Position numbers and translations under genes: made by a program
Shown: piece by piece, positions 2,064-9,974 of the stretch
How the letters are laid out: each line of letters starts with the position of its first letter
How positions within the stretch are numbered: the first letter of the stretch is position 1
Notes under the pieces: generated by a model
Database searches by the model: none
The model's input: the letters and a program-made list of their open reading frames with translations, nothing else
What the model was told of the DNA's origin: nothing
DNA from: a virus
DNA: 26,261 bases
IMG/VR virus record: IMGVR_UViG_3300027734_000280
Location: 1 to 26,261 of that record
Direction: 5' to 3' (one strand)

Positions 2064-3737
2064 TTAGCTCCACTTGATGATTACGATACCAGAGCCGCCG
2101 TTACCAGCAATACCGTCAACTTGAGCGCCGCCACCTCCACCGCCCGTGTTAGTGGTTCCAGACGTTCCCACCAAAAGACCGCCAGCACCACCACCGCCAG
2201 AACCGCCTGCACCTGCGGTGGAATCACCTTTTCCACCGCCACCTCCGCCAGCATAAGTTACAGATGTTCCTGTAATTGAAGAGGCTGAACCAGCACCGCC
2301 AGCACCCGCCGCCCCACCAGTTCCTGCGTTACCAAGTGCGCCTGCGCCCCCACCACCACCACCAGCGTTTCCTGATGGGTTTGATGTTCCTCCATTAAAG
2401 CCCTGTGCTGGAGAAGTGCTAGGCGTATTACCAGAACCGATAGTTGTAGAACCCCCAGCACCACCACCTGAACCGCCTGAACCCGCAAGAGTGCCAGTAT
2501 TACCGCCTTGACCTTTACCACCACCAGTAGAAGTTATAGAACTAAATACGGAATCGCTACCATTGGCAGAATTAGACCCGCTACCGCCAAAACCACCATT
2601 TCCTCCAGCGCCAACAGTAACTGTGTAGGTTGTACCTGCGGTAACAGAAAGACCCGTGGCAGTACGGAATCCGCCAGCGCCACCACCGCCCGTACTATTA
2701 CTAACACCAGTTTGACCTTGACCACCGCCACCGCCACCAGCAACAACTAAGTATTGAACTTGAGTTGCGCCAGCAGGAGCAGTCCATGTGTTGGACGAGA
2801 AGAAAATAACTGTATTACTTGGAAGTAAGTCAGTGGCTGTTGTTGGAGCCAATGTGCCTGAAGATGTAAACGTATGAACGACATTACCAGCGGCATAGGT
2901 TACTGTGCCACCAGTGAAATATTGAATTGAGCCGGGGTAGCGGAGAATGACAACGCCTGAACCGCCTGCCGCTCCAGTACCCGAACTATGAGAGGCGCCG
3001 CCGCCACCACCACCTGTGTTTGCAGTTCCAGCGGTCGGTGAAGTAGCGCCGCTACCGCCGCCGCCAATACCACCACCACCTACACCACCTGCGCCAATTA
3101 CAGCCGCGCCACCTGCGCCAGCACCGCCGCCACCCGCGTAAGCAGTCACTGCCCCAGAAATTGCACTAGCAATACCAGCGCCGCCATTACCCGCCGAAGA
3201 TGAGACAAATTTCAATCCAATAGTTCCAGCGCCACCACCGCCGCCACCACCTGTAACACCAGATGTTGATAAATCACCATTACCGCCAGCATTACCTTGT
3301 CCACTTATGCCAGAAGCACCTATGGCAGTCGTCCAGTATTGGGAGCCACCACCACCAGAACCTCCAGAAGTTCCTCCACCAGCACCAGATGAAGCACCGC
3401 CGCCACCGCCTCCACCAGAGGCAACAATACGTCCTGTAAATGCGCCAGATGTTGTAGAGTCAAAAACAGAGTTTTGTCCTACCGTTCCATTAGCAGTGCT
3501 AGTTCCGCCAGCACCGCCACCGCCAACAGTTACAAAATAAGAAGCGCCCAGCGTAATACCCGCGTATCCAGCAAGTAAACCACCAGCCCCGCCACCACCA
3601 CCACCGTTAGCGCCACCCCCTGCACCTCCAGCAACAACCAAATACTCAACAACAGACGGAGGAACGCCCGTCCAATTCAGGTTTTTGACCGCCTGACTGA
3701 CTTGACTCAGTGTCCACATTCCGCTGTATGTTGGCAT
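2064..3737 (-). CDS. Glycine-rich adhesin/tail fibre with two tandem Gly-rich domains (557 aa)
   Basis: Residues 1 to 28 form a short anchor-like module (LSQVSQAVKNLNWTG) that resembles the N-terminus of the 271-residue paralog. The first Gly-rich domain runs from VEYLVVAGG (near residue 31) to GGSGVVILRYPG (near 270). A linker of about 50 residues with a small beta module (HTFTSSGTL) follows. The second Gly-rich domain starts at VQYLVVAGGGGGG (near 330) and ends at GGSGIVIIKWS. The long runs of Gly, Ser and Thr with GGGGGGA blocks fit the glycine-rich phage domain family; similar Gly-rich repeats form polyglycine II sandwiches at the receptor-binding tips of some phage adhesins. Unlike its paralogs, the second domain stops right after its last strand and lacks the C-terminal SGTITF module. 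Confidence 0.8.
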   Translation of the reverse strand: MPTYSGMWTLSQVSQAVKNLNWTGVPPSVVEYLVVAGGAGGGANGGGGGGAGGLLAGYAGITLGASYFVTVGGGGAGGTSTANGTVGQNSVFDSTTSGAFTGRIVASGGGGGGGASSGAGGGTSGGSGGGGSQYWTTAIGASGISGQGNAGGNGDLSTSGVTGGGGGGGAGTIGLKFVSSSAGNGGAGIASAISGAVTAYAGGGGAGAGGAAVIGAGGVGGGGIGGGGSGATSPTAGTANTGGGGGGASHSSGTGAAGGSGVVILRYPGSIQYFTGGTVTYAAGNVVHTFTSSGTLAPTTATDLLPSNTVIFFSSNTWTAPAGATQVQYLVVAGGGGGGQGQTGVSNSTGGGGAGGFRTATGLSVTAGTTYTVTVGAGGNGGFGGSGSNSANGSDSVFSSITSTGGGKGQGGNTGTLAGSGGSGGGAGGSTTIGSGNTPSTSPAQGFNGGTSNPSGNAGGGGGGAGALGNAGTGGAAGAGGAGSASSITGTSVTYAGGGGGGKGDSTAGAGGSGGGGAGGLLVGTSGTTNTGGGGGGAQVDGIAGNGGSGIVIIKWS

Positions 3738-3749
3738 CTCTTGCTCCGA

Positions 3750-4106
3750 TTAAGCTGTAGTAACTTCAACCCAAGAAGTTGTGGGTTCGTCCCATGTAAA
3801 GCGTTTACCTTCTACAACAGGCATAGCTGTAGGTGCGCCCCACTGACAAGTGCTTTCATTTAACAACCAAGACGCATAAGGCTTAGGTGGAATAAACGCA
3901 TCGCGTTGTGCATCATAGGTAAAACCAATACCTGCATAGTTTTTACGCAGTGGTGTACCGCCTTGAGTGTGAACACCGCCTTGGGTGTTGTATGAGGTCT
4001 GAATCCAAGATGCTGGGTCGCCCCAGTGACCAAGGTTTAAAACGTCTTGCTCGATGACGATGACTTGCGTCACTACACCGTTTTCTACTTTTGCGAAATG
4101 GCTCAT
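3750..4106 (-). CDS. Conserved virion-associated protein (118 aa) between adhesin genes
   Basis: The sequence has three recognisable blocks: MSHFAKVENGVVTQVIVIEQ at the N-terminus, GGTPLRKNYAGIGFTYDAQRDAFIPPKPY in the middle, and FTWDEPTTSWVEV at the end. From memory this pattern recurs in many cyanophage and other aquatic phage genomes, usually next to tail or fibre genes, with no experimentally known role. It has no signal peptide or membrane segment, and its aromatic content (Trp, Tyr) suggests a compact beta fold. It sits between two glycine-rich adhesin genes in the late operon, so a fibre-associated or chaperone-like role is possible, but that is inference. Confidence 0.75.
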   Translation of the reverse strand: MSHFAKVENGVVTQVIVIEQDVLNLGHWGDPASWIQTSYNTQGGVHTQGGTPLRKNYAGIGFTYDAQRDAFIPPKPYASWLLNESTCQWGAPTAMPVVEGKRFTWDEPTTSWVEVTTA

Positions 4107-4115
4107 AGTTGCTCC

Positions 4116-5231
4116 TTAAAAAATGATTGAACCAGAAGAAGTCCAAGTGTAAATTTGATAACCGTCTGCGTAGTTTACTTGGGGTGAACCTGTCACTAGC
4201 GCTGGGGCTGAATTAAGTTGTGGGTAACGAACGATTACGATGCCAGAGCCGCCTGTGCCACCAAAACCTGAACCACCAGCAGAAGCGCCGCCACCTCCAC
4301 CGCCAGTGTTTGCAGTCCCATTAACCCCATAACCCTGAAGATCGTTACCACCTCTACCACCCCCTGCGGCGGCAAATCCACCGTTGATACTAGTAGTACC
4401 GCCGCCTCCACCACCGCCAGCATAGAAAACTCGTGCGCCAGTAATGCTAGAACACATACCTGTGCCGCCATTTCCCGGTGGGCCACCACTGCCTTTTCCG
4501 ACAGTTCCAACAGAACCTGCGCCTCCGCCGCCGCCGCCAACATTGACAGTTCCCAGCGACCCGCCTTGACCACCAGCAAAACCTTGCCCTGATGTTCCCG
4601 CACCAGCGTTACCGCCATCAGAAGCGCCGCCACCACCAGACCCGCCAGCAGTACCAGAAACGCCATTAAAGCTTCCACCGCCGCCACCACCAGTGGATGT
4701 GATGCTACTAAATACAGAGTTAGCTCCAGATGACCCAACCACACTACTACCACTAGCCCCACCCGCACCAACAGTGACAGTTAAAGCAGTACCACTAGCA
4801 ACAGCAAAACCAACCGCAGTCAAAAGACCACCCCCACCTCCACCTCCTGCGGCATTGCCACCTCCGCCGCCGCCACCAGCTACTACCAAATACTCAACAG
4901 TATTAGGAGCACCAGCATAAGGATTGAATGCACGTTGGGTTACGGCAGTGTGAGTGCCAGAGCCTGAACTGTTTGTGAACGTGACAGCAGAGCCGCCAAG
5001 CGTTGTGGAGAATTGGCAAGTGTTTGTACTTGTGCTGATGACGTAGTAATTTGTGTTCAATGACAAACCAGTTGGTAAAGTGCCAGTAGTTGTGAACTGC
5101 ACAGCCTGACCCACAGCAGGTGTTGCCTGCGTAGAAGCAAAAGTGAATGTTGGTGAAGTTACAGCCGTGAACGTGCCAATGGCGATGTTAATGTTCTGCC
5201 CTGCAATAAAACCACCTAATCTATTACTCAT
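4116..5231 (-). CDS. Glycine-rich adhesin/tail fibre (371 aa)
   Basis: The N-terminus MSNRLGGFIAGQNINI resembles the anchor of the 298-residue paralog (RVGGILSVG). Residues about 20 to 95 form a beta module with TGLSLNTNYYVIST and SGSGTHT motifs, a repeat type I have seen in phage fibres. The Gly-rich domain starts at VEYLVVAGGGGGGG (near 113) and ends at GGSGIVIVRYP (near 330). A C-terminal strand module follows (YTWTSSGSIIF), the counterpart of SGTITF in the two next genes. The extreme Gly content makes the plus strand a chain of CCACCGCC-like words. A receptor-binding role is inferred from family and position. Confidence 0.8.
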   Translation of the reverse strand: MSNRLGGFIAGQNINIAIGTFTAVTSPTFTFASTQATPAVGQAVQFTTTGTLPTGLSLNTNYYVISTSTNTCQFSTTLGGSAVTFTNSSGSGTHTAVTQRAFNPYAGAPNTVEYLVVAGGGGGGGNAAGGGGGGGLLTAVGFAVASGTALTVTVGAGGASGSSVVGSSGANSVFSSITSTGGGGGGSFNGVSGTAGGSGGGGASDGGNAGAGTSGQGFAGGQGGSLGTVNVGGGGGGAGSVGTVGKGSGGPPGNGGTGMCSSITGARVFYAGGGGGGGTTSINGGFAAAGGGRGGNDLQGYGVNGTANTGGGGGGASAGGSGFGGTGGSGIVIVRYPQLNSAPALVTGSPQVNYADGYQIYTWTSSGSIIF

Positions 5232-5240
5232 GTCTGTTCC

Positions 5241-6056
5241 TTAGAAGGTGATTGTTCCAGAGGCAAGGAACGTGTAAACAGTCCAGCCCGTAATAGATGA
5301 TTTAGTGCCAGTGGTCACACTTGCGGCATCGGCGTATGTGTTTGGATAACGAATGACGACAATGCCAGAGCCGCCAGCAATGTAGTCACCTGCTCCAGCA
5401 CCAGAGCCTTTATTTGCCGCGCCTGCTGAACCAGAAGCAGTTCTTGCCGCAGTTGTGTCTGAATTACCGCCGTTATTGCCAGCGCCATTACCACCGCCAG
5501 CATAAGCAGTTAAAGTACCTGTAATAGCAGAAGCCACCCCTGAACCACCAAGCGACCCATAACCGCCAACGGAAACGTCAGTACCACGAGTACCTGCGCC
5601 ACCACCACCGCCTGTAGCATTATTTGTTGCACCGCCACCCCCAGTCCACCCCTTACCCCCATCATTGCCTTGACCTAGTGTTCCGTAGCCTATTGTATTG
5701 CCGTTCCCGCCACCGCCCTGAGATGCGCCACCGCCTGATCCGCCATTTGCTGGGGCTGTAGTTCCACCGCCACCAGAACCACCTCCAGCGGCAGTTATTG
5801 AACCAAACACAGAATTACCGCCGTTGGAATAGTATTGACCTCCAGCACCAATAGTAATTAGTAATGTTTGCCCATTTGGTACAGGGTTTAAACCCTGCAA
5901 CAAACCTCCAGCGCCCCCTGCTGAACCCCAGTTATACCCAGTTCCACCACCACCAGCAATAACCAAATATTCAACTGACGGTGTTCTTTGTGCAGGCCAA
6001 CCACCTTGTTGAACAGCTTGTACGACTTGCTTGAGATTAAATAAACCGTTTGCCAT
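5241..6056 (-). CDS. Glycine-rich adhesin/tail fibre (271 aa)
   Basis: This is the shortest member of the adhesin cluster. A 30-residue N-terminal module (FNLKQVVQAVQQGGWPAQ) matches the anchor of the 557-residue paralog rather than that of its direct neighbours. The Gly-rich domain begins at VEYLVIAGGGG and ends at GGSGIVVIRYP. A C-terminal module of about 40 residues follows and finishes with YTFLASGTITF. The Gly-rich part is more diverse here, with more Asn, Thr and Tyr between Gly runs, as expected for surface loops under receptor selection. It sits nine bases from the neighbouring paralog on one side and six on the other. Function is inferred. Confidence 0.8.
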   Translation of the reverse strand: MANGLFNLKQVVQAVQQGGWPAQRTPSVEYLVIAGGGGTGYNWGSAGGAGGLLQGLNPVPNGQTLLITIGAGGQYYSNGGNSVFGSITAAGGGSGGGGTTAPANGGSGGGASQGGGGNGNTIGYGTLGQGNDGGKGWTGGGGATNNATGGGGGAGTRGTDVSVGGYGSLGGSGVASAITGTLTAYAGGGNGAGNNGGNSDTTAARTASGSAGAANKGSGAGAGDYIAGGSGIVVIRYPNTYADAASVTTGTKSSITGWTVYTFLASGTITF

Positions 6057-6062
6057 AAAACC

Positions 6063-6959
6063 TCAGAATGTGATAGTGCCAGAGGCAACAAACTTGTACA
6101 CGCGCCACGCGCCTGCAACGTACATTTCAGGAGAGCCTGTTGTTGACGTGGCTGGGGCTAAATAAGATGGGTAACGAATGATGACTATGCCTGAACCGCC
6201 AGCACCACCAGTGTAAACATTACCACTTGAACCATAAGTAAAGTTAGCCGCACCACCGCCAGAGCCTGTATTAGCAATTGCAGAAAAGCCAGAACCAATC
6301 AATTCATTGCTATTACCAGCACCACCACCTCCGCCAAGTCCACCAATGTATAAATATGAACCTCCACCCCCGCCACCAGCATAGGTTACAGATGTTCCAG
6401 AAATTGAAGATACCAAACCTGCGCCACCAATCCCAGCAACAAGTGAAGTACCCGCTATACCAGCAGAACCTGCGCCACCGCCACCGCCACCTCCTTGTGC
6501 GGTTCCTGTGCTACTACCACCGCCAGCATTGCCTTGTGTTGGAGAAGCTGTAGCTGTTCCACCAGTACCTCCATAAGCACCGCCGCCGCCAGAACCGCCC
6601 GTTTTACCATTGAATAAGCCTGTTGAATAAGCACCAGCACCGCCACCGCCAGTTGTTGTGATAGTTGTGCCACCAGCAAGACTTGAATTTACGCCAGAAA
6701 ACCCAGTGCCATCTACTGTACCTGCTACTGCTCCTGCGCCTCCAGCACCAATAGTAATTGTGATGGCTGAACCCATAGTCACAGCGTAGCCAGTAGCGGA
6801 TAAAAGACCACCCGCACCTCCACCTCCGCCGGGTGTCCCACCCTGTGTAGCCGCACCACCACCCCCGCCAGCCACGACAAGGTACTCCACCGTTGTTACA
6901 GGTGAATTGATGCCGTCAAGCCCGACAGAAAGAATGCCGCCAACTCTATCAAGAGACAT
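6063..6959 (-). CDS. Glycine-rich adhesin/tail fibre (298 aa)
   Basis: This is the first Gly-rich gene to be transcribed. The N-terminus MSLDRVGGILSVGLDG is similar to the anchor of the 371-residue paralog. The Gly-rich domain runs from VEYLVVAGGGGGAA (near residue 24) to GGSGIVIIRYP (near 250), and a C-terminal module ends in YKFVASGTITF. The conserved edges (VEYLVVAGG at the start, SGIVIIRYP at the end) frame variable Gly-rich loops, as in the other copies. With the next genes it forms a tandem family that probably arose by duplication. A host-recognition role is inferred. Confidence 0.8.
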   Translation of the reverse strand: MSLDRVGGILSVGLDGINSPVTTVEYLVVAGGGGGAATQGGTPGGGGGAGGLLSATGYAVTMGSAITITIGAGGAGAVAGTVDGTGFSGVNSSLAGGTTITTTGGGGAGAYSTGLFNGKTGGSGGGGAYGGTGGTATASPTQGNAGGGSSTGTAQGGGGGGGAGSAGIAGTSLVAGIGGAGLVSSISGTSVTYAGGGGGGSYLYIGGLGGGGGAGNSNELIGSGFSAIANTGSGGGAANFTYGSSGNVYTGGAGGSGIVIIRYPSYLAPATSTTGSPEMYVAGAWRVYKFVASGTITF

Positions 6960-6971
6960 AGTAGCCTCCTA

Positions 6972-7373
6972 TTAAGTGATAGCTTCAAATGTGGCTGTGT
7001 AGTTCAATGCGCTACTTGTACCGGAGATCACGCCTACAGACTGGTTCTCAGTCACATAGAACGATGAAGTCTTGTCGGCCACAACCACAGAAGCGTTTGG
7101 GGGGACGCTCACTTGATATGCAATGTAGTAGGGTGTACCGCTTGCATAGGTAGCATTGTTTGAGATAGCCACAGTACAAGTTGCAGCAGATGAAGTGACG
7201 TTAGCCACCACAATGCTCGTGACACGATTAACTGTACCAGCCGCAGGCGTCAATCCTGTCAGTGAAGTAGAACCGTTGTATGTCCATGCAACAGATACAG
7301 AGGTAGAAGCGGGTATGACATACGCCGAATTACCATAAATACTCGTGACGTTAACAATATTTGGATTTGCCAT
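6972..7373 (-). CDS. Beta-rich structural protein, fibre-associated (133 aa)
   Basis: The protein is rich in Ser, Thr, Val and Ala with regular alternation, typical of a beta-sandwich. Motifs include NVTSIYGNSAYVIPAS at the start, TSIVVANVTSSAATCTVAIS in the middle and a VISGTSSALNYTATFE end. There is a single Cys and no signal peptide or membrane segment. I recall similar short proteins encoded next to tail fibres in cyanophage-like genomes, without a tested role. It lies between the fibre-like 212-residue protein and the Gly-rich adhesins, so a minor tail or fibre-joining protein is plausible. Confidence 0.65.
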   Translation of the reverse strand: MANPNIVNVTSIYGNSAYVIPASTSVSVAWTYNGSTSLTGLTPAAGTVNRVTSIVVANVTSSAATCTVAISNNATYASGTPYYIAYQVSVPPNASVVVADKTSSFYVTENQSVGVISGTSSALNYTATFEAIT

Positions 7374-7383
7374 TTATTACTCC

Positions 7384-8022
7384 TTAGAACCCGAAGATCA
7401 TCGCCATAGCGATGGCTTTACCTGTTGAAACGCCAGCAGTTCCCCATGTAGGTGGGCTAGCACCGTTTGATAGAAGTGCCTGACCTGATGTACCTGCTGC
7501 TGTAAAAGCATATGCTGTACCCGTACCGTAAGGTACTGCGCCTGCTGTTGGGGCTGCTGTAGCATTTGTACCGCCGTTGGCAATTGGCAAAACACCACTA
7601 ACAAAATACGGGGCTACTTTTACATAATCTGTGCCGTTGTAGTAGACAAATGCTTTCTCACCAACAGCAATAGAAACACCGGTTTGACCAGCGGCTTTAA
7701 ATGTTACTGCGCTGGTAGCGCCTGCGTGATCCACCATGTACAGCTTGCTGTAACTTGGACCTGTGATAACCTTGGTAACCGTTTGTGTGCCAGTGATACG
7801 GATAACTGCGTATTGGGCTGTGGTGGAAGTTATCGCGTTTCCTGACGAGCTACCCGTAGTGTTTGCCAGAGTAATAGCGCCATCACCTGCAAAAGATAAT
7901 GTGCCTGCAATGGCAATATCAAGGTAGTCAGAAATACCGTAGTTGACTGTATCGCCCCACGTACCAGAGAGCGTTCCCTGTGTGGGGGTGACCAAGCCCA
8001 AAAGAGTTGTCGTTGCTGCCAT
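7384..8022 (-). CDS. Tail fibre-like protein (212 aa)
   Basis: The N-terminus MAATTTLLGLVTPTQGTLSG with TWGDTVNYGISDYLDIAIAG is a module I recognise from phage tail fibres. The middle part contains KLYMVDHAGATSAVTFKAAG, and the C-terminal third contains the LPIANGGTNATAAPTAGAVPYG block. ANGGTN is a common repeat motif in fibre shafts, followed by a short strand (SGQALLSNGASPPTWGT). This suggests a trimeric fibre segment or a fibre-like baseplate protein, but the gene is short and has no obvious receptor tip, so it may connect to the Gly-rich adhesins downstream. That link is inference from gene order. Confidence 0.75.
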   Translation of the reverse strand: MAATTTLLGLVTPTQGTLSGTWGDTVNYGISDYLDIAIAGTLSFAGDGAITLANTTGSSSGNAITSTTAQYAVIRITGTQTVTKVITGPSYSKLYMVDHAGATSAVTFKAAGQTGVSIAVGEKAFVYYNGTDYVKVAPYFVSGVLPIANGGTNATAAPTAGAVPYGTGTAYAFTAAGTSGQALLSNGASPPTWGTAGVSTGKAIAMAMIFGF

Positions 8023-8880: not shown

Positions 8881-9357
8881 TCAGGTTGTAGCGATACGCA
8901 ACAACGCAGCAGCAGTGGTATTAGCAGGCATAGTCAATGTAAATGTACCGGCGGTAATTGTCTGTGAACCGAAGGTGTGTACGCTGACAGCCTTATTGCT
9001 CTGAGTAGAGTTATAAATAAACACTGTATCAAACGCAGTCGTCAAAGTCACAGTTGTGTACGTGATTGAAGCTGAAGGCGTCCAGTAAGCTGTACCGGCG
9101 GTTGTCGATGTATTAGAAGCCAAAGGCGCAGTTGCATTTGTTACTGTTACACCACCAGCCGAATACCCTGTACCAGTTACTTCGCCGGAAGATGAGTACA
9201 CAGTTGTTGACGCATTAACCGTTGCGCTTGTCAAATACAAAGCTGCTTTGAACGTATCAGCAGTGGTAGCAGCACGGATAGGCGCTACACCAAAATTATG
9301 GGTTGCAGTAAGAACTTCGCCTAAGAACGAAGTGCACATTGCTTGGGTATTAGCCAT
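8881..9357 (-). CDS. Beta-rich structural protein, paralog of 9555-9974 (158 aa)
   Basis: The central block FKAALYLTSATVNASTTVYSSSGEVTGTGYSAGG aligns with IKIALYTANANLNEDTTVYS plus SEVAATGTYSAGG in the 139-residue protein nearby. Both also share a late segment (NSTQSNKAVSVHTFGSQ here, NVTQGNKSVAVLDFGSD there) and a TFTLTMPAN or TFTVTMPTN strand close to the C-terminus. So the two genes are clearly paralogs, separated by one small gene. Similar proteins are common next to fibre genes in aquatic phages. A tail or fibre-connector role is inferred. No enzymatic motif is visible. Confidence 0.7.
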   Translation of the reverse strand: MANTQAMCTSFLGEVLTATHNFGVAPIRAATTADTFKAALYLTSATVNASTTVYSSSGEVTGTGYSAGGVTVTNATAPLASNTSTTAGTAYWTPSASITYTTVTLTTAFDTVFIYNSTQSNKAVSVHTFGSQTITAGTFTLTMPANTTAAALLRIATT

Positions 9358-9366
9358 GATGTTTCC

Positions 9367-9558
9367 TTATGTAAGAGATGCTGCTTCAGCAACAATTGGG
9401 GGCATTTTCTTCAGGGCTACATGGGCTGAACGATGCACCAATTCACCCTCTAACCAATACTCCACCCAAGTGGTGTATTCGTTCTCATTATCGACGACTC
9501 CCTCTCTTTTCTCAAGCAGAGATTCATCCATATCACCTTTGGTAGTAGTAACAATCAA
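9367..9558 (-). CDS. Conserved small phage protein (63 aa), TTG start
   Basis: The protein begins MIVTTTKGDMDESLLEKREG and contains TTWVEYWLEGELVHRSAHVALKK. I recognise this pattern as a small conserved protein in many aquatic phages, of unknown function. The start codon is TTG, 9556-9558 on the minus strand, preceded by AGGAG six to seven bases upstream, inside the end of the preceding gene. The stop of that gene overlaps the start as TTGA. It sits between the two paralogous beta proteins. It is acidic, without membrane segments, and could be a small regulatory or assembly partner. Confidence 0.65.
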   Translation of the reverse strand: MIVTTTKGDMDESLLEKREGVVDNENEYTTWVEYWLEGELVHRSAHVALKKMPPIVAEAASLT

Positions 9559-9974
9559 TTTGAACTCCTAATCAATGAAGTGGTTGCGCCATTGGTCGGC
9601 ATGGTAACTGTGAATGTGGTTGTAGAAGTCTTGTCTGAACCGAAGTCCAATACAGCAACAGACTTATTACCTTGCGTAACGTTGTAAATCAACGCGCATC
9701 TTGCGGTAATTGCACCTGTCCAAGATACATTAGGAAAACTTACGTACGCCGTATAACCAGAAGTGCTGACCGTGATTGGTGTCAATTGCGAGCCACCAGC
9801 CGAATATGTACCTGTAGCCGCTACTTCACTATCTGTGCTATACACGGTTGTGTCTTCATTCAGATTAGCATTGGCTGTGTACAAAGCAATTTTGATAACA
9901 TCGGTCGTTAGGTCATGAATACCTTGATACAACTGCGCTTTAAAGCTGGTGGTCTGAGTCTGAACAATTGACAT
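9555..9974 (-). CDS. Beta-rich structural protein, paralog of 8881-9357 (139 aa)
   Basis: The sequence starts MSIVQTQTTSFKAQLYQGIH and carries the shared blocks IKIALYTANANLNEDTTVYS and GTYSAGGSQLTPI, a middle strand region ending at RCALIYNVTQGNKSVAVLDFG, and the final TFTVTMPTNG. The first 25 residues differ from the paralog, so the anchoring end has diverged while the core is kept. The gene follows the adaptor by one base. Its neighbours (SU10-type adaptor on one side, fibre genes on the other) fit a protein at the tail or fibre attachment region. This is inferred from context only. Confidence 0.7.
   Translation of the reverse strand: MSIVQTQTTSFKAQLYQGIHDLTTDVIKIALYTANANLNEDTTVYSTDSEVAATGTYSAGGSQLTPITVSTSGYTAYVSFPNVSWTGAITARCALIYNVTQGNKSVAVLDFGSDKTSTTTFTVTMPTNGATTSLIRSSN

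Follow-up and report, generated by a model that had tools for sequence, protein, structure and literature searches.

Several described phage systems combine glycine-rich tail proteins, variable tips or dedicated chaperones. The tail fibre gp24 of cyanophage Pam3 works with a chaperone, gp25 (PDB 7YPX; PMC9608196), and joins a TNF-like fold and a Gly-rich distal domain, a conserved stem, a variable tip and a small chaperone. This fibre is similar to gp38 of phage S16 (PMC9608196), which, like its counterparts in T2-type phages, is an adhesin at the tip of the long tail fibre with a glycine-rich bundle and variable receptor-binding loops (PDB 6F45). Polyproline-II bundles are described for mycobacteriophage Bxb1, in gp33 and gp29 and in tail wing brush and tail spike proteins (PMC13243192), and in the Alteromonas phages A5 and V22 a module of fibre plus cognate chaperone is common to distantly related phages (PMC10579305). 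The locus described here resembles these systems in parts and differs from each of them.

The window, a 26,261-nt stretch of viral DNA, carries four minus-strand genes (A, B, C and D) that encode Gly-rich, adhesin-like proteins. A first-pass annotation had recognized these four and missed two further genes, p118 between C and D and g6972 before A. Both are members of the cluster, giving the module order g6972-A-B-C-p118-D; whether g7384 also belongs to the cassette is uncertain. The features are as follows, with half-1 and half-2 denoting similarity to the two halves of a bipartite anchor discussed below.

7384–8022, minus strand: g7384, 212 aa, a tail-region protein, found upstream of the cassette in 28 of 30 cases
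6972–7373, minus strand: g6972, 133 aa, a small conserved protein directly before A; candidate platform or adaptor for the anchors
6063–6959, minus strand: gene A, 298 aa, Gly-rich, adhesin-like, slot A (PF21722, 81.7 bits; AlphaFold model and Foldseek)
6891–6959, minus strand: anchor of A, MSLDRVGGILSVGLDGINSPVTT, half-1 type (z-scores against the bipartite anchor halves)
6171–6890, minus strand: Gly-rich domain of A (VEYLVVAGG ... SGIVIIRY)
5241–6056, minus strand: gene B, 271 aa, Gly-rich, adhesin-like, slot B (PF21722, 27.7 bits)
5976–6056, minus strand: anchor of B, MANGLFNLKQVVQAVQQGGWPAQRTPS, half-2 type (z-scores against the bipartite anchor halves)
5346–5975, minus strand: Gly-rich domain of B
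4116–5231, minus strand: gene C, 371 aa, Gly-rich, adhesin-like, slot C (PF21722, 65.9 bits)
4899–5231, minus strand: anchor region of C, with half-1 type MSNRLGGFIAGQN, an insert, then ...FNPYAGAPNT (cassette comparison)
4224–4898, minus strand: Gly-rich domain of C
3750–4106, minus strand: p118, 118 aa, candidate adhesin chaperone (phrog_7759, E=6e-34)
2064–3737, minus strand: gene D, 557 aa, two Gly-rich domains, slot D (PF21722, 147.4 bits, two stretches)
3651–3737, minus strand: anchor of D, MPTYSGMWTLSQVSQAVKNLNWTGVPPSV, half-2 type (z-scores against the bipartite anchor halves)
2937–3650, minus strand: first Gly-rich domain of D, grouping with B tips (tip tree)
2070–2759, minus strand: second Gly-rich domain of D, grouping with the second B domains of other phages (tip tree)

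The same arrangement is present on two other contigs (L115 and L116) at 99.6–100% protein identity, so it is no assembly artefact, although these contigs could derive from the same site. The proposal of four genes with five Gly-rich domains was borne out: D has two domains, all four genes exceed the curated Pfam cut-off for PF21722 (Gly_rich_2; 24.3 bits) and match phrog_2295, and gene A used as a query against the whole record found exactly five places. Gene B has one domain here and is two-domain or extended in many relatives. An AlphaFold monomer model of A (pLDDT 85.6, pTM 0.85) matched best, in Foldseek, a Bxb1 tail-tip chain (PDB 9D93; E 5e-5, prob 1.00, TM 0.34–0.49), and also the Pam3 fibre (prob 0.99, E 0.028, TM 0.39–0.46) and the Gly-rich domain of ALK; all reported fold matches had TM-scores below 0.5, and S16 gp38 was not among the matches listed. 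An HMM of A orthologs matched the Pam3 fibre with E 0.004, and phmmer of D against the PDB returned nothing. These predictions point to a Pam3-like fibre fold for the Gly-rich domains, and both A and p118 fold-match chains of entry 7YPX. Pam3 differs in having a single fibre, which docks through a long helical domain at its N-terminus, whereas here there are four adhesins with short tags: A, B and D have just 20–30 residues before the domain and no long helical docking domain, and in C the anchor and tip are parted by an 80–90-aa insert that is absent in other cassettes (MSQTLLGGFLSATFNPLSG). S16 gp38 differs as well, attaching to gp37 by its own N-terminal helices. Bxb1 is another type of phage with another host.

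The anchors had been described as two kinds arranged in alternating pairs, and comparison against a shuffled control agrees (B-D, z=10.8; A-C, z=3.3; the four cross pairs, -1.1 to 0.2). Other phages keep a single bipartite anchor, MxxRYxGGIISATPP...GVWTLxQxLQYxxAGTWP, with 444 related stretches. Among 19 distinct N-termini gathered for comparison, 13 continue into a Gly-rich tip and others into LamG or another repeat tip. Slot A anchors resemble the first half of this anchor (z=12.1; second half, -0.3), as do those of slot C (z=10.2), and the anchors of slots B and D resemble the second half (z=9.1 and 7.6; first half, 2.3 and 0.6, respectively). A and C carry half 1 only, B and D half 2 only, and none of the four holds both halves in one protein. 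The two anchor kinds, as judged from these sequence similarities, thus appear to be two halves of one tag that is kept whole elsewhere, a relation new to this analysis. The earlier idea of two attachment sites was right about the two kinds of anchor, and is better replaced by two halves of one anchor. The anchors are short, and the relation between half tags and bipartite tag fits a split or a fusion alike. Phage DSL-LC04 (OR003939) has a similar anchor with a Gly-rich tip, a g6972 homolog directly before it and a p118 homolog nearby; proteins of this type, Gly-rich or LamG, differ in holding the halves in one protein and in numbering only one or two per locus.

The g6972 family lies beside anchored adhesin genes in 30 of 30 cassettes and in 16 of 16 loci with the bipartite anchor (16 of 80 loci by an over-strict regular expression that undercounts them). 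It is present in 40/40 anchored p118 loci versus 1/18 p118 loci without these anchors; one unanchored locus with g6972 is L227. On the strength of this co-occurrence, g6972 would be the best candidate for a partner or platform on which the tags dock. Searches of g6972 against Pfam and the PDB gave no informative match. Fusions of a g6972-like domain to a Gly-rich tip, suspected by eye in two loci (L211 and L222), were not confirmed by HMM.

The other small gene, p118, is the most conserved of the cassette, with a mean identity of 0.84 versus 0.58–0.61 for the tips across 24 full cassettes. Situated between C and D, and close to Gly-rich genes at most loci, it is placed as chaperone genes of the gp25/Tfa type are, next to the fibre. 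Among ten named phages with p118 relatives, most have Gly-rich genes no more than 4.5 kb away from the relative. Its model (pLDDT 81) has a sole helix of 6 residues, and the best fold match among 350,542 PDB chains was the Pam3 fibre chaperone, chain 7ypx_a, a weak match (prob 0.90, E 0.11, TM 0.34). The Pam3 chaperone, which is absent from virions, differs in being a 162-aa protein with a C-terminal helical trimerisation domain, which the p118 model lacks, and profile and Pfam searches with p118 gave no chaperone link. We regard p118 as a candidate chaperone of the cassette's Gly-rich proteins, a weak assignment.

Slot-specific anchors and gene order are conserved in about 40 distinct related cassettes; the loci were collected through similarity and include near-copies, which leaves the counts non-independent. 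So many adhesin genes in tandem had seemed unusual, but of the 58 p118 loci that extend 4 kb or more upstream, 40 contain anchored Gly-rich sets, mostly of four genes, and where the anchors are of other kinds as many as seven Gly-rich genes lie near p118. The cassette is found in five records whose portals are 28–31% identical to that of the window, and one relative, whose portal is 92% identical, is without the cassette, including p118 and g6972. Transfer is visible in one pair of records: L173 has neighbouring tail genes 79–94% identical to the window's, L181 has a portal 29% identical to it, and the DNA of the two matches (80–84%) only over a stretch that starts ~64 nt ahead of g6972 and ends within the first domain of D. 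Within this stretch the identities are.89 for A,.83 for C,.86 for D and.63 for B, which has been largely replaced. The module g6972-A-B-C-p118-D therefore moves between otherwise unrelated phages. The A5/V22 modules differ in consisting of a single fibre with knob domains rather than four Gly-rich adhesins with split anchors (PMC10579305). When cassette carriers were searched for a tail sheath, those of 65 kb and 335 kb had none that matched; only one record matched, and it has no half-1 or half-2 anchors. A tblastn search of gene C against named phages found nothing, most likely through BLAST's low-complexity masking, and was replaced by motif and HMM searches.

We consider it probable that these genes make up a self-contained and exchangeable cassette for receptor binding, with docking tags, a chaperone and a duplicated pair of adhesin genes. 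Each of A–D would be a small tail adhesin whose 20–30-residue N-terminal tag attaches it to the tail and precedes one or two Gly-rich domains built, as in Pam3 gp24, from a TNF-like fold and a polyglycine bundle, with the variable far loops making contact with the host. We infer that p118 would serve as a folding chaperone common to all tips of the cassette and that g6972 would be the docking partner or platform of the tags. Duplication of a half-1 plus half-2 pair would have produced A+B and C+D. Selection would hold tags and chaperone constant while the tips diverge and are exchanged one slot at a time, and phages with different cores would pass the entire cassette among themselves. Several receptor specificities in one phage are plausible on this reading of the sequences.

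The history of the tips bears on this explanation. Duplication of a two-gene unit, one of two origins suggested by the first-pass annotation, is supported by the tip tree, in which A and C tips fall on one side of a branch (support 87), B and D tips on one side of another (96), and the second domains of B and D group together (98), matching the anchor pairs; the A+C side is the less well supported, and a grouping of A with B tips survives the AU test (p-AU 0.17). The other suggested origin, in which the tips of one phage are routinely swapped among four anchors, is very improbable. Anchors and tips compared separately both give the A/C and B/D pairs, and by the criterion that the first-pass annotation itself set, this concordance tells against an exchange of tips between sites. 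In 148 of 167 cases a tip has its closest counterpart from another phage in the same slot (permutation mean 32, maximum 50). Slot labels require 10 changes on the tip tree versus 71 when shuffled, which largely refutes routine swapping. What speaks for it is one clear slot jump, in which the tips of D in L164 and of B in L166 group together (support 100), and a handful of nearest-neighbour exceptions, 16 of 19 of which remain within the pair class. Across related contigs, tips are replaced between phages inside a slot and do not routinely change slots. Anchor distances correlate with one another (r.37–.79) and only weakly with those of their own tips (.21–.45). Constant flanks around hypervariable tips would also suit a diversity-generating retroelement that varies the tips via reverse transcriptase, but RVT_1 matched in none of 12 cassette-bearing records, which may be fragments, and we give this mechanism almost no weight.

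The Gly-rich proteins could instead be structural decoration of the tail, a brush or fibre coat that binds no receptor. The Bxb1 tail-tip chain is among the top fold matches of A, and the polyproline-II bundles of the Bxb1 brush and spike proteins point the same way (PMC13243192). Yet no part varies more than the tips, which are exchanged one slot at a time under constant anchors, and LamG-type lectin tips sit on the same anchor in other phages; recognition fits these observations better, and we think decoration unlikely. A stronger form of the receptor-binding cassette explanation holds that the anchors are split between partners of a heteromer: A and B, and likewise C and D, would have to dock jointly, each giving half of the tag, so that each site bears two different tips. 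The confinement of each half to its own slots is consistent with joint docking, since the two halves form the anchor of one protein elsewhere; so are the alternating order A-B, C-D and the retention of both anchor kinds together in nearly all full cassettes. Against it, the genes that follow g6972 homologs in HTVC033P, S-SKS1 and Bellamy have a short tag, GGxIG-like or similar, at their start and lack half 2, and half 1 may therefore suffice alone. Obligate heteromers thus seem a possible but rather doubtful refinement of the receptor-binding cassette, which we prefer in its simpler form.

The receptor-binding cassette supplies names for a great many tail genes of environmental phages that have lacked annotation: a recurring anchor, a likely socket (g6972) and a likely chaperone (p118). 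More speculatively, a bipartite anchor split over two genes may let two adhesins share a dock built by g6972, with duplication of the pair yielding four tips, and anchor and g6972 may form a general plug and socket through which entire cassettes, as well as tips of the Gly-rich, LamG and other kinds, are passed among phages whose tails differ. If so, metagenomic contigs could reveal tip content and probable receptor breadth, and the exchange of host-recognition parts among unrelated phages would become testable on a module with visible boundaries.

This 26,261-base IMG/VR contig fragment derives from a tailed phage. Its minus strand bears the terminase, portal and neck/tail genes, after which come the adhesin cluster, genes for lysis and a structural gene. 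The closest named portals are ~41% identical to the window's (e.g., those of Pelagibacter phages HTVC027P and HTVC023P and of phage DSL-LC04), and a 74-kb contig carries portal and adhesins 100% identical to it. Domain searches of the window bore out the four genes with five Gly_rich_2 domains described in the first-pass annotation (hereafter A–D), each a short N-terminal anchor followed by a Gly-rich tip. Two adjoining genes (9555-9974 and 8881-9357) both hit phrog_644 and seem to have arisen by duplication of a tail-region gene. Two small genes accompany A–D:

g6972: 133 aa, ~12 nt before A, candidate platform
p118: 118 aa, phrog_7759, between C and D, candidate chaperone

Relatives gathered by searching with the portal, gene B and p118 comprised 41 distinct cassettes once near-copies were removed. 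The order g6972-A-B-C-p118-D and the slot-specific anchors were kept across them, and several tandem Gly-rich genes, a number earlier considered unusual, proved normal in this group. Mean identity was highest for p118 (0.84), followed by anchors (0.60-0.81) and tips (0.58-0.61, falling to 0.39-0.41 without shared glycines). Within its anchor region (4899-5231), gene C has an inserted segment of 80-90 aa; many cassettes have a short form without it. The second domain of D (2070-2759) has seemingly N-terminal edge strands (VIFFSSNTWTAPAGATQVQYLVV), versus C-terminal ones in A-C, and looks like a circular permutation. Three loci (L211, L215 and L218) hold larger arrays of many Gly-rich genes with other, quite different short N-termini and without g6972, suggesting other anchor/socket systems.

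A Gly-rich protein of DSL-LC04 begins with MSMRYKGGILSATPPTTSTAAATGVWTLIQQLQAQAAGQWP, and a search with it returned 444 related stretches; we used 19 distinct bipartite N-termini for comparison. The anchors of A and C matched only the first half of this bipartite anchor (z 12.1 and 10.2) and those of B and D only the second (z 9.1 and 7.6); against opposite halves, z was -0.5 to 2.3. The two anchor kinds proposed earlier are thus real, but as halves of one anchor. Either the cassette split the bipartite anchor or other phages fused its halves; it may have gone in either direction. Bipartite anchors carry Gly-rich tips in 13/19 cases and LamG or another repeat in 6/19; Pfam confirmed LamG in DSL-LC04.

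Anchor likeness exceeded shuffled controls for B-D and A-C and not for cross pairs. Tips of A and C likewise grouped in the tree (support 87), as did those of B and D (96) and the second domains of these two genes (98), and tip identity within pairs exceeded that of cross-pairs by 0.039, the excess being positive in 840/965 A-C and 887/1051 B-D comparisons. Together, these three results agree with the suggested duplication of a two-gene unit; two separate duplications could also account for them. Shuffling between slots, also suggested, is rare and mostly within a pair class, since the nearest tip lay in the same slot for 148/167 tips; the one clear between-slot case was D of L164.

All 30 cassettes whose upstream sequence was long enough had a g6972 homolog upstream of the anchored genes, as did 16/16 bipartite loci. 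When p118 loci were restricted to those with ≥4 kb of upstream sequence, g6972 was present in 40/40 anchored versus 1/18 unanchored loci (Fisher p 9e-14, the loci being non-independent). The gene that follows the g6972 homolog in HTVC033P, S-SKS1 and Bellamy has a short tag at its start, GGxIG-like or similar. Because library searches found no function for g6972, it is from this co-occurrence that we infer its likely role as anchor platform. One 367-kb record that lacks a clear anchor (L227:11639-13161) has a g6972 homolog, then a Gly-rich gene with HIQYKQASLWPA in its N-terminus, which may be a diverged second-half anchor.

Structural matches of the gene A model (pLDDT 85.6) included Bxb1 tail-tip chains and the Pam3 fibre, with a weak match to the ALK Gly-rich domain; a profile of A orthologs matched the Pam3 fibre in sequence (E 0.004). 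The best match of the p118 model among 350,542 chains was the chaperone chain of the Pam3 entry (probability 0.90, E 0.11). This convergence of two independent searches on one entry is suggestive, but TM-scores were < 0.5 and p118 lacks the helical domain of that chaperone. The Pam3 chaperone folds the Gly-rich fibre and went undetected in virions (PMC9608196).

Comparison of cassettes indicates that single slots are exchanged while neighboring slots match: L173 and L181 are alike in A, C and D (0.83-0.89) and not in B (0.63), L152 and L163 in B alone (0.90), and L169 and L174 in A and B. Whole cassettes also move between phages. The tail genes directly upstream in L173 are window-like (79-94%), the portal of the L181 record is 29% identical to the window's, and the L173/L181 DNA match runs only from ~64 nt before g6972 into the first domain of D. 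A 335-kb record (L190) has homologs of A, C, p118 and D, and a relative with a 92% identical portal has neither p118 nor g6972, with other genes in their place. Anchor distances in one slot correlated with those in the others (r.37-.79) and only weakly with those of the tips they carry (.21-.45). GIY-YIG endonuclease genes, which may promote slot exchange, interrupt the cassettes of three relatives, either separating adhesin genes or separating C from p118 (L140:1685-2362, L162:1113-1739, L172:6449-7186); that of L172 begins with the slot-C anchor letters MSQTLLGG.

Gly-rich phage fibres and transferable recognition modules are already known, the latter with precedent (PMC10579305). The literature searched, which left most subscription journals outside its coverage, yielded no description of this cassette. 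What is new is the combination of four slots, a split anchor, a candidate socket and a candidate chaperone, travelling together.
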